Assembly (NCBI RefSeq): GCF_005166025.1
Contig: NZ_CP028923.1
Coordinates: 3,226,001-3,290,000, forward strand
Source: Mangrovivirga cuniculi
GTDB lineage: Bacteria > Bacteroidota > Bacteroidia > Cytophagales > Cyclobacteriaceae
DNA length: 64,000 nt
Reading direction: 5' to 3'
Shown here in pieces: positions 25,279 to 44,606 of the stretch; position 1 is the first letter of the stretch, and every line of letters begins with the position of its first letter. Below the pieces are notes generated by a model, which worked only from the letters and a program-made list of their open reading frames with translations, searched no databases and had not been told where the DNA came from. Made by a program: the position numbers and the translations under genes.

Positions 25279-27162
25279 GTGAAGAATTTTGTAATCGACT
25301 TTGATAGTACTTTTACTAAAGTAGAAGGACTCGATCTTCTAGTAGAGATAGCTCTTAAAAATCATGAAAATAAAGAAAGTGTTGTTAAGAAAGTCAAAGA
25401 CATCACTGATAAAGGAATGAGTGGTCAGCTTGGTTTTGAAGATTCTCTCAAGCAAAGAATAGCTCTACTGAAAGCAGATAAAAAAGATGTAAAAGATCTA
25501 TCAGAAAGGTTGAAAAATGAGGTTTCTAAGAGCTTTAGAAGAAACCAGGAATTCTTTGACAAATATGCTGACAATATCTACATTGTCAGCAGTGGATTTA
25601 AAGACTTTATTATTCCTGTTGTAGAAGAAATGGGAGTTAAACCAGAGCATGTTTATGCAAATGAGTTTAAATATGATGAGAATGGAAATATCATCGGTTT
25701 TGATGAAACCAATGAATTGGCCAAAGACAATGGGAAAGTTAATTTGCTTAAAAACCTTAAAATAAAAGGAGACATCTATGTCATCGGAGACGGATATACC
25801 GATTATGAAATCAAAGCCTCGGGACTCGCAAATAAATTTTATGCATTTACTGAAAATGTTCAACGGGGAAATGTATTAGAAAAAGCCGATCACATTGCTC
25901 CCAGTTTAGATGAAATACTTTATTTAAATAACATGAATACAGCGATTAGTTACCCTAAAAACAGGATCAACGTTCTCCTTTTAGAAAATATTCATCAGGA
26001 TGCTGTCGAAAGCATGAAAGAAGAAGGATATAACGTAGAAGTTTATCCCGCAGGTCTGGATGAAGATGAGCTATGTGAGAAGATTAAAAATGTCTCAATA
26101 TTAGGTATCAGGTCTAAAACACACGTAACCAGAAGGGTACTGGAAAATGCTAACAGGCTGATCGCCGTGGGTGCATTTTGTATTGGCACCAATCAAATAG
26201 ATCTTGAAGCATGCCTTGAAAAAGGAGTAGCCGTGTTTAATGCTCCTTATAGCAACACGAGGTCTGTGGTTGAGCTTGCTCTTGGTGAGATTATTATGCT
26301 CATGAGAAATATTCCGGATAAGAATATAGCTATGCATAATAAGAAATGGAATAAATCTGCTAGCGGTAGTTATGAAATAAGAGGAAAAAAACTGGGAATA
26401 ATTGGTTACGGAAATATAGGTGCTCAACTTTCAATTCTTGCGGAAGGTGCCGGGATGGATGTTTACTATTATGATATCGTGGAAAAGCTTGCCCTTGGAA
26501 ACGCAACCAAATGCAATAGTCTAAATGAATTATTAAACAAAGCAGATGTAATTTCATTGCATGTTGACGGCCGACCTGAGAATAAAAACATCATTGGAGA
26601 CAAGGAATTCAATCAGATGAAAGATGGGGTGGTATTCCTTAATCTAAGCAGAGGCCAGGTAGTAGATATACCTGCATTGGCAAGAAATCTTAAATCAGGT
26701 AAAATCAGAGGTGCTGGAGTTGATGTTTTTCCGGAGGAACCAAAAAGCAATGAAGAACCTTTTAAATCAGATTTGCTTGGTCTTCAGAATTTGATCCTTA
26801 CCCCACATATTGGAGGTAGCACACTGGAAGCACAGGAAAATATTGCTGATTTTGTTCCCAATAAAATTATGCAATACATAAATACTGGTAGTACAACGAA
26901 TAGTGTCAACTTCCCGAATTTACAATTGCCTACACTTGAAAACGCACATCGTTTAATTCATATCCACCGTAACAAACCTGGTATTTTAGCAAAAATGAAC
27001 AACGTGCTTCTTGAACATGACATCAATATTGTAGGGCAATACTTAAAAACGAATGAACAAATTGGTTATGTAATCACCGATATAGACAAACAATACGATA
27101 AGGATGTAATAAAGGCCTTAAAAGCCATTGAGGGAACAGTAAAATTCCGGGTTTTATATTAA
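25279..27162 (+). CDS. Fused phosphoserine phosphatase / D-3-phosphoglycerate dehydrogenase
   Basis: A 627-residue two-enzyme fusion. Residues 1-220 are a SerB-type HAD phosphatase with DFDSTFT (nucleophile), SSGF and GDGYTDYEIK. Residues about 232-540 are a SerA-type dehydrogenase with GIRSKTHV, the NAD-binding GYGNIGAQ, LNLSRGQVVD and the catalytic PHIGGSTLEAQ His. Residues about 550-627 are an ACT domain (HRNKPGILAKMNNVL), likely for serine feedback. It catalyses the first and last steps of serine synthesis; serC, the middle step, is the next plus-strand gene. All catalytic motifs look intact. GTG start at 25279 places the nucleophile Asp at residue 7, as usual. Confidence 0.92.
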   Translation: MKNFVIDFDSTFTKVEGLDLLVEIALKNHENKESVVKKVKDITDKGMSGQLGFEDSLKQRIALLKADKKDVKDLSERLKNEVSKSFRRNQEFFDKYADNIYIVSSGFKDFIIPVVEEMGVKPEHVYANEFKYDENGNIIGFDETNELAKDNGKVNLLKNLKIKGDIYVIGDGYTDYEIKASGLANKFYAFTENVQRGNVLEKADHIAPSLDEILYLNNMNTAISYPKNRINVLLLENIHQDAVESMKEEGYNVEVYPAGLDEDELCEKIKNVSILGIRSKTHVTRRVLENANRLIAVGAFCIGTNQIDLEACLEKGVAVFNAPYSNTRSVVELALGEIIMLMRNIPDKNIAMHNKKWNKSASGSYEIRGKKLGIIGYGNIGAQLSILAEGAGMDVYYYDIVEKLALGNATKCNSLNELLNKADVISLHVDGRPENKNIIGDKEFNQMKDGVVFLNLSRGQVVDIPALARNLKSGKIRGAGVDVFPEEPKSNEEPFKSDLLGLQNLILTPHIGGSTLEAQENIADFVPNKIMQYINTGSTTNSVNFPNLQLPTLENAHRLIHIHRNKPGILAKMNNVLLEHDINIVGQYLKTNEQIGYVITDIDKQYDKDVIKALKAIEGTVKFRVLY

Positions 27163-27166
27163 GAAA

Positions 27167-27350
27167 GACACCGGGGAAAGTTGCAGACCTTGCTAAATTA
27201 GCAGGATTTGGGCTATCCCTTTCCGGTCAACCTTCCACTGTTAACTTCTGAACTAACAGAAGACCTACAAAGTAGGTTGAGGCCCGGTTTCGCGGTGGGA
27301 TTCACCCGGTATTGTTAATAGTGTTCAAAGTCGCAAAACGTCCCGATGCC
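27167..27350 (-). ncRNA. Structured RNA, candidate 6S-like RNA
   Basis: On the minus strand the ends pair as 5' GGCATCGGG with CCCGGTGTC 3', a 9-bp closing stem containing two G-U pairs. On the plus strand these would be A-C mismatches, so the RNA is on the minus strand. The inner stem is GTT..GC-GAC with GTC-GC-AAC. Next comes an AT-rich unpaired 5' strand, opposite a 3' strand holding a small hairpin (TGCTAA/TTAGCA). The irregular terminal arm includes TCAACC/GGTTGA and CTGTTA/TAACAG. Closing stem, asymmetric bubble with a 3'-side hairpin, long apical arm and a length of about 184 nt are the 6S RNA plan. Transcription from the TAACTTTG box would begin exactly at the first G. 6S identity is inference; a structured RNA is well supported. 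Confidence 0.6.
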
Positions 27351-27357
27351 TTATATG

Positions 27358-27365
27358 CAAAGTTA
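27358..27365 (-). promoter_or_regulatory. -7 box for the structured RNA
   Basis: TAACTTTG on the minus strand is an exact TAnnTTTG match, ending 7 bases before the first paired G of the RNA at 27350. No convincing -33 TTG is seen 19 bases upstream. Confidence 0.5.
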
Positions 27366-27438: not shown

Positions 27439-28518
27439 ATGCATCAACTATATTTTACACCAGGACCATCAGCATTATACCCAACAGTCAATCTGCATTT
27501 AAAAGATGCATTGAGTAAAGGATATCTGTCTGCTTCGCACAGGTCTGCTGCATTTAAAGATATATACAAGGAGACTGAAAATAATTTAAGAACCTTATTA
27601 TCGCTACCAGATAATTTTTCAATATTATTTACTTCTTCTGCTAATGAAGCATGGGAAAGACTGATCCAGAATACAGTAGAAAACAAATCTCTCCATCTGG
27701 TAAATGGCGCTTTTAGTAAGCGATTTGCTGATATAGCTTCTGCTTACAATAAGGATGCAATAGTTTATTCAGCAAAGGAAGGCGAGGTTGTTCATGTCGA
27801 TGAAATAAAAGAAGATCAAGAGGTCGAACTTATAGCTATCACTCACAACGAAACTTCCACGGGTGTTTCCCAACCTCTTGAAGATATTAAGAAACTTAGA
27901 AATAAATTTCCGGATGCATTAATAACTGTTGATGCTGTTTCATCTTTACCTATAGTCGATCTTCCTTATGATTTAATAGATTCTGCTTACTTTTCGGTAC
28001 AAAAATGTTTTGGGCTTCCTGCCGGCCTTGGAGTTTGGATAGTAAATCAAAACTGTATCGAAAAAGCAGAAAAACTGGAAAACAAGGGGATAATTACCGG
28101 TTCATATCATAGGCTACTGGCTATGTATAAAAAGGGAAAAGATTTCCAAAACGTGGAAACACCAAATGTTTTGGGTATCTATTTATTGGGCAAAGTTGCC
28201 GGAGATATGTTAACTAAAGGCATAGGACAAATCAGAAACGAAACGATATATAAAGCGGGCGTTTTATATTATGGTTTACAAACGCATCCTTTACTTAATC
28301 CTTTTGTAAATGATGAAAAAATTCGTTCCCAAACTGTATGTGTCTTTAACACCAACGGAGAGTCGGAAAGAATTATCAATGAATTAAAGAAAAAACATAT
28401 GGTTATTGGAAGTGGTTATGGTAGCTTTAAAAGTAATCATATAAGAATTGCTAACTTTCCTGCTACCGGTAAGGAGCAGATAGAAATGCTGGCAGATAAA
28501 ATAAATGAAATACAATAA
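27439..28518 (+). CDS. serC: Phosphoserine aminotransferase (class V)
   Basis: A 359-residue PLP enzyme converting 3-phosphohydroxypyruvate to phosphoserine. The N-terminus LYFTPGPSALYP, the HRSAAF region, TVDAVSSLP and the Schiff-base Lys in SVQKCFGLPAG are seen. It completes the serine pathway with the upstream SerB-SerA fusion. The leader between them holds an antisense-strand RNA gene, so serC probably has its own promoter; TATTTTCG at 27406-27413 resembles a -7 box. It is followed after 16 bases by a universal stress protein. Confidence 0.9.
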   Translation: MHQLYFTPGPSALYPTVNLHLKDALSKGYLSASHRSAAFKDIYKETENNLRTLLSLPDNFSILFTSSANEAWERLIQNTVENKSLHLVNGAFSKRFADIASAYNKDAIVYSAKEGEVVHVDEIKEDQEVELIAITHNETSTGVSQPLEDIKKLRNKFPDALITVDAVSSLPIVDLPYDLIDSAYFSVQKCFGLPAGLGVWIVNQNCIEKAEKLENKGIITGSYHRLLAMYKKGKDFQNVETPNVLGIYLLGKVAGDMLTKGIGQIRNETIYKAGVLYYGLQTHPLLNPFVNDEKIRSQTVCVFNTNGESERIINELKKKHMVIGSGYGSFKSNHIRIANFPATGKEQIEMLADKINEIQ

Positions 28519-44275: not shown

Positions 44276-44347
44276 TAGCCCGTAGGGGATTCGAACCCCT
44301 GCTACCAGGATGAAAACCTGGCGTCCTAACCCCTAGACGAACGGGCC
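44276..44347 (-). tRNA. tRNA-Glu (anticodon TTC)
   Basis: A 72-nt cloverleaf on the minus strand, starting GGCCCGT and ending ACGGGCT plus discriminator A; a G1-U72 pair closes the acceptor. The anticodon stem CCAGG/CCTGG encloses TTTTCAT, giving anticodon TTC. The T arm holds GGTTCGAATCC. No CCA is encoded. It is identical to the copy 259 bases away. Confidence 0.97.
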
Positions 44348-44534: not shown

Positions 44535-44606
44535 TAGCCCGTAGGGGATTCGAACCCCTGCTACCAGGATGAAAACCTGGCGTCCTAACCCCTAGACGAA
44601 CGGGCC
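44535..44606 (-). tRNA. tRNA-Glu (anticodon TTC), second copy
   Basis: Same 72-nt sequence as the copy at 44276-44347, with the same G1-U72 closure and anticodon TTC. The identity extends to a 97-bp direct repeat (44275-44371 and 44534-44630) that covers the tRNA and the -7 box. Confidence 0.97.

Follow-up and report, generated by a model that had tools for sequence, protein, structure and literature searches.

When the downstream helix of Escherichia coli 6S RNA is opened, a hairpin forms in the 3' strand of its central bubble and contributes to release of the RNA (PMC8876501). For the Bacteroidota, Rfam holds the families 6S-Flavo (RF01685; Weinberg et al. 2010, PMC2864571) and Bacteroidales-1 (RF01693), the latter labelled '6S-Bacteroidales RNA suggested'. 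A 6S RNA and its product RNAs have been seen by dRNA-seq in Bacteroides thetaiotaomicron (PMC7366714), and we infer that this RNA is a member of RF01693. For the Cytophagales (Algoriphagus, Echinicola, Belliella, Roseivirga and others), Rfam has no 6S RNA above threshold, a gap that is filled by the homologs described here. A 2014 survey by Wehner et al. may already list Cytophagales 6S RNAs. In the Bacteroidota the primary sigma factor is unusual, and promoters carry a -7 box, TAnnTTTG, instead of the classical -10/-35 pair.

We analysed a stretch of 64,000 nucleotides from Mangrovivirga cuniculi (contig NZ_CP028923.1, positions 3,226,001 to 3,290,000; hereafter the window), the minus strand of which contains a real and conserved structured RNA gene of about 190 nt at positions 27352-27161. 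In our judgement this RNA is very probably the 6S RNA of M. cuniculi, of a Cytophagales type. An initial annotation had placed a 184-nt structured RNA at 27167-27350 on the same strand; the RNA itself stands, and its natural ends lie nearer to 27352 and 27161. The predicted 6S RNA gene thus measures about 192 nt (27161..27352, minus strand), as judged from homology, covariation and promoter position, its putative ends being set by the geometry of the TAnnTTTG box, the closing stem and the U-rich end. The minus strand folds with an energy of -62.2 kcal/mol (z -3.2, with 0 of 200 shuffles as good), and folding of the plus strand is weaker (-56.6, z -2.05). The longest open reading frame within 27167-27350 encodes 36 aa on either strand, in agreement with the earlier statement that no protein frame covers the RNA.

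The RNA has the shape of a rod, in which the closing stem (P1/P2) leads through an AT-rich central bubble to an apical arm with two small terminal hairpins; all features below are on the minus strand. P1 is formed by the 5' strand AAGGCAUCGGG (27342..27352), supported by cognate-stem scores in homologs, and the 3' strand CCCGGUGUCUU (27165..27175), which runs into the U-rich RNA 3' end (27166-27161), and this end overlaps the stop codon of serA. As first described, GGCAUCGGG and CCCGGUGUC pair into a closing stem of 9 bp that includes two G-U pairs; two more A-U pairs extend it to 11 bp. Helix P2, the equivalent of the downstream duplex, pairs GACUUUG (27326..27332) with CAAGGUC (27186..27192) and shows double changes at 7 of its 7 pairs; its 3' strand is partly shared with an alternative hairpin. 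The 5' strand of the central bubble, AACACUAUUAACAAUACC (27308..27325), is the expected template of the product RNA by analogy with other 6S RNAs (PMC8876501), synthesis being predicted to begin opposite bubble positions 3-5 (window sequence GUGUUCAAAGUC...), and the 3' strand, AAAUCCUGCUAAUUUAG (27193..27209), contains the conserved motif AAAnCnUG. On the arm side of the bubble, helix P3 pairs GGGU (27304..27307) with GCCC (27213-27210). In the homolog alignments the apex consists of the near-invariant motif GGCCUCA (27278..27284), hairpin 1 (ACCUACUUUGUAGGU, 27263..27277; double changes at 5 of 5 helix pairs), hairpin 2 (CUUCUGUUAGUUCAGAAG, 27245..27262; double changes at 3 of 4 pairs) and the near-invariant motif AACAGUGGA (27234..27242), of which CAGUGGA also occurs in a Bacteroidales-1 RNA. 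Of the 6S-like layout proposed initially, the closing stem, AT-rich bubble and arm are present; its small 3'-bubble hairpin is missing from the lowest-energy full-length fold and forms on opening of P2.

Five nucleotides upstream of the 11-bp stem lies TAACTTTG (27358..27365), an exact Bacteroidota -7 promoter box (TAnnTTTG); its distance of 7 nt to the first stem G agrees with the initial annotation. In Flavobacterium psychrophilum this box occupies -12 to -5 (PMC9723704), a geometry that would put the start of the window RNA at 27353-27351. In 40 of 76 homologs an exact TAnnTTTG precedes the closing stem with 0-12 nt in between, compared to 0.9% of shuffled 20-nt stretches, and TTTT is found at or just past the 3' end of the closing stem in 60 of the 76.

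Support for the fold came from an alignment of 53 homologs, which was fitted to a covariance model and in that respect favours the structure; the margins are nonetheless large. Standard pairs occupy 93.9% of the cells (72.7% when shuffled). Covariation scores 0.614 in the alignment, 0.215 after shuffling and no more than 0.163 when the partners are slid. Both sides have changed at 28 of the 32 pairs, so that the compensatory changes which the initial annotation had proposed to look for are overwhelming, and 0 of 500 shuffles reached any of the observed covariation measures. P2 has even been exchanged as a whole, from GACUUUG/CAAGGUC in the window to CAAACCU/AGGUUUG in most homologs and GUUAACC/GGUUAAC in L027, and the second pair of P3 shows a G-C to A-U exchange in 19 of the 53 sequences. 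The closing stem, which is outside the model, scored 26.6 for cognate strands in the homologs, 17.4 for non-cognate strands and 14.9 for shuffled ones. Overlapping reading frames of up to 36 aa could speak for a short protein gene. This reading, like that of a chance fold, is refuted by the covariation: the changes compensate pair by pair, hairpin lengths vary, homologs extend across orders and no shuffle attains the observed values, leaving both a negligible probability.

The same alignment identifies the coding strand. Read on the minus strand, it contains 155 G-U cells and 20 A-C cells, which indicates that the RNA is the minus strand and bears out across homologs the argument first made from the two G-U pairs of the closing stem. 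The gene lies between a fused SerB-like/SerA protein (25279-27162, plus strand) and a SerC-like aminotransferase (27439-28518, plus strand). Since the RNA sits between serA and serC in the genus and in many relatives, and the plus strand also folds to some extent, one might suppose that it acts in cis on serC from the plus strand, as a leader RNA or an attenuator, or that it regulates serA/serC in antisense. Such a role is highly improbable, given that G-U over A-C cells (155:20) favour the minus strand, that promoter and U-rich end are both on that strand, and that homologs persist without adjacent serA, serC or both; a plus-strand element is rejected on the G-U asymmetry and the covariation. 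Among the homolog loci, 21 have serA downstream in antisense, and the upstream antisense neighbour is serC in 27 and usp in 37, with 0 cases of the opposite orientation where these neighbours are present. As the RNA is kept where serA or serC is not adjacent, it is not an element of a serine operon.

With regard to the neighbouring genes themselves, the 'serA' frame (25279-27162, plus strand) encodes an N-terminal HAD phosphatase (SerB-like), a 3-phosphoglycerate dehydrogenase and an ACT domain, and the fusion together with the adjoining SerC places the serine pathway in two adjacent genes. In E. coli K-12, too, about 1 kb separates ssrS (6S RNA) from serA (L273, 3055983-3058410), an interval that contains fau and sibC; the recurrence of 6S-serA proximity in two phyla is probably a coincidence. 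Elsewhere in the window, two minus-strand tRNA genes (44276-44347 and 44535-44606), about 260 bases apart, have identical Rfam scores and are possibly a recent duplication.

The distribution of the RNA was examined at several levels of sensitivity. BLASTN retrieved six relatives, four of them from other genera. Their common motif, GGCCTCANCC...CAGTGGA...TTG, was matched once in each of 37 genomes out of 196 from the family, compared to 0 matches for the reversed control. A covariance model made from 12 homologs (R1) matched 30 of 194 genomes of the order, always as a single copy; all 16 matched members from the family of M. cuniculi are among them. Its successor, built on 53 sequences and searched with more sensitive filters (R2), matched 24 genomes out of the 25 sampled from this family (Cyclobacteriaceae), again with one copy each. 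Named carriers include Algoriphagus, Echinicola, Belliella, Roseivirga, Marinigracilibium and Mangrovivirga. Matches of the DNA pattern in six unrelated MAGs (L151, L171, L177, L178, L187 and L191) have no R2 match and are attributed to chance; six further pattern matches, in Flavobacteriales, Bacteroidales and other Bacteroidetes records, are real as judged by R2, and none was found in virus contigs. R2 also matched 6S-like RNAs outside the class and within the phylum (L101, L102, L103, L108, L109 and L110, with matches starting at 1501), which have an apex with GGCCUCAUCC and ACAGUGGAAGU and an altered bubble.

The Rfam 6S models were searched as had been recommended. RF00013 (general 6S) gave no match over the whole genome with E up to 10, and RF01693 likewise gave no match over the window's genome; Rfam files the 6S RNAs of Bacteroidota in families separate from RF00013. 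RF01685 pointed to the right place and strand with 20.1 bits (E 4.8), to be read against a gathering threshold of 85 that was set on the Rfam seed; two other sites in the genome score equally high, so this match alone is not evidence. Support for the 6S identity comes instead from relatives, in the form of reciprocal matches between covariance models and the two 6S families of the Bacteroidota. R1, which was built without flavobacterial sequences, coincided with RF01685 at 16 of 17 loci with 27.9-39.9 bits, the next best score in 53 kb being 13.5, and R2 found RF01685 places genome-wide with E from 7e-7 to 3e-4. RF01693 and R2 coincide at G591, with 166.6 bits (over the cut-off) for the former and a genome-wide E of 6e-5 for the latter, and also at four weaker loci (G386, G583, G596 and G574); at G386 a single place (C1:875190) is matched by RF01685, RF01693 and R2 alike. 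One further locus, L041, was found from both sides in the homology test. When 20 homolog loci were scanned with all of Rfam, 11 of the 14 sub-threshold matches were to RF01685 or RF01693 and lay on this RNA. What had been a guess on the earlier evidence is thus now supported by reciprocal matches to RF01685 and RF01693. The RNA also has the traits of a 6S RNA: a closing stem, a large central bubble and a long apical arm, each with covariation, as well as a predicted length of about 192 nt (about 180-200 in 6S RNAs), its own promoter box and, as is usual, a single gene per genome.

The bubble deserves separate consideration. In the homologs it measures 15-21 x 15-18 nt (about 17 x 17) with 70-75% AT, between P2 and P3/arm; the 5' strand is 15-21 nt long with 75% AT, and the 3' strand opens with AAAnCnUG in 45 of 53 sequences. 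Mimicry of the sigma-A -7 box by the sequence of the 3' bubble is unsupported, as the best copy of TAnnTTTG there agrees at 3.85 of 6 positions and in shuffles at 3.70, which is no better. The SM5-type box TAnnTTGY gave 4.47 versus 3.88 when shuffled, a lead only, as two motifs were tried on related sequences. For the Bacteroidota a -7-box match is not an established requirement, so its absence is not decisive for 6S membership. The lack of a sigma-A box copy, together with the better conservation of the apical motifs GGCCUCA and AACAGUGGA compared to the bubble, could also suggest a conserved small RNA of 6S descent that has taken on another job in the Cytophagales, e.g. by binding another protein through its near-invariant apex. 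We give this only a slim chance: the RNA has kept the size of its bubble and the AAAnCnUG motif as well as P2 and the alternative hairpin, and a Bacteroidales-1 locus, a 6S RNA by Rfam's suggestion, likewise has GGCC, the two hairpins and CAGUGGA. Within the preferred 6S reading, a tentative and rather doubtful idea is that in Bacteroidota outside the Flavobacteriia the clade-specific apex (GGCCUCA, two hairpins, AACAGUGGA), being more conserved than the bubble, might contact RNA polymerase or a dedicated partner, unlike proteobacterial 6S RNA, and replace mimicry of the -7 box at the sequence level.

In the 3' bubble, the conserved AAAUCYU is complementary to the 3' strand of P2. Folded alone, the 3' bubble and P2 3' strand form hairpins with a mean z of -1.56 across homologs (-3.15 in the window, -4.97 in L027, -4.14 in L032 and -3.29 in L029). 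Blocking the P2 5' strand of the window RNA in folding, as a product RNA would, yields the alternative hairpin CCUGCUA-AUU-UAGC-A-AGG at 27205-27188 (27188..27205), which excludes P2. Several sequences with a changed P2 have rebuilt this hairpin from other pairs, and in about one third of the homologs it is weak or absent. These computations indicate a predicted bistable pairing between P2 and the 3' bubble, and together with the E. coli 6S hairpin they lead us to propose the same release logic for the window RNA.

Transcription of the RNA would start from a minus-strand housekeeping promoter of its own. By analogy with other 6S RNAs, its bubble and arms would mimic an open promoter, such that the holoenzyme with the primary sigma factor binds RNA and not DNA. 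On return of nucleotides, polymerase would use the 5' bubble strand as the template for a short product RNA, thereby unwinding P2; the freed P2 3' strand could then pair with AAAUCYU of the 3' bubble into a hairpin incompatible with P2, helping to eject the RNA. Polymerase binding, product RNA and release are thus putative activities of the window RNA.

The homologs bridge the separately filed families 6S-Flavo and Bacteroidales-1, and a single Bacteroidota 6S model could consequently replace both. Given the unusual primary sigma factor and promoter of this phylum, a well-aligned 6S family makes open-promoter mimicry testable for that enzyme, together with the predicted switch between P2 and the 3' bubble and the part played by the conserved apex.

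With 6S-Flavo the window-type RNA has in common P2, P3, AACA beside P2, AAAnCnUG in the 3' bubble and GCC/GGA at the apex, whereas 6S-Flavo has a short apex lacking the two-hairpin module and a core of about 110 nt instead of 147 nt. Bacteroidales-1 shares the closing stem, P2, a bubble with CAAAUCUUGU and an apex of GGCC, two hairpins and CAGUGGA; its bubble carries the same CUCAAAUCUUGU, but the sequence has otherwise diverged. The 6S RNAs of E. coli and B. subtilis (RF00013) have the same rod of closing stem, central bubble and apical arm, encoded by one small gene with its own promoter, and that of E. coli forms a 3'-bubble hairpin upon opening of the downstream helix (PMC8876501), as is predicted for the window RNA; in contrast to these, a bifurcated apex and a TAnnTTTG -7 box belong to the window RNA.
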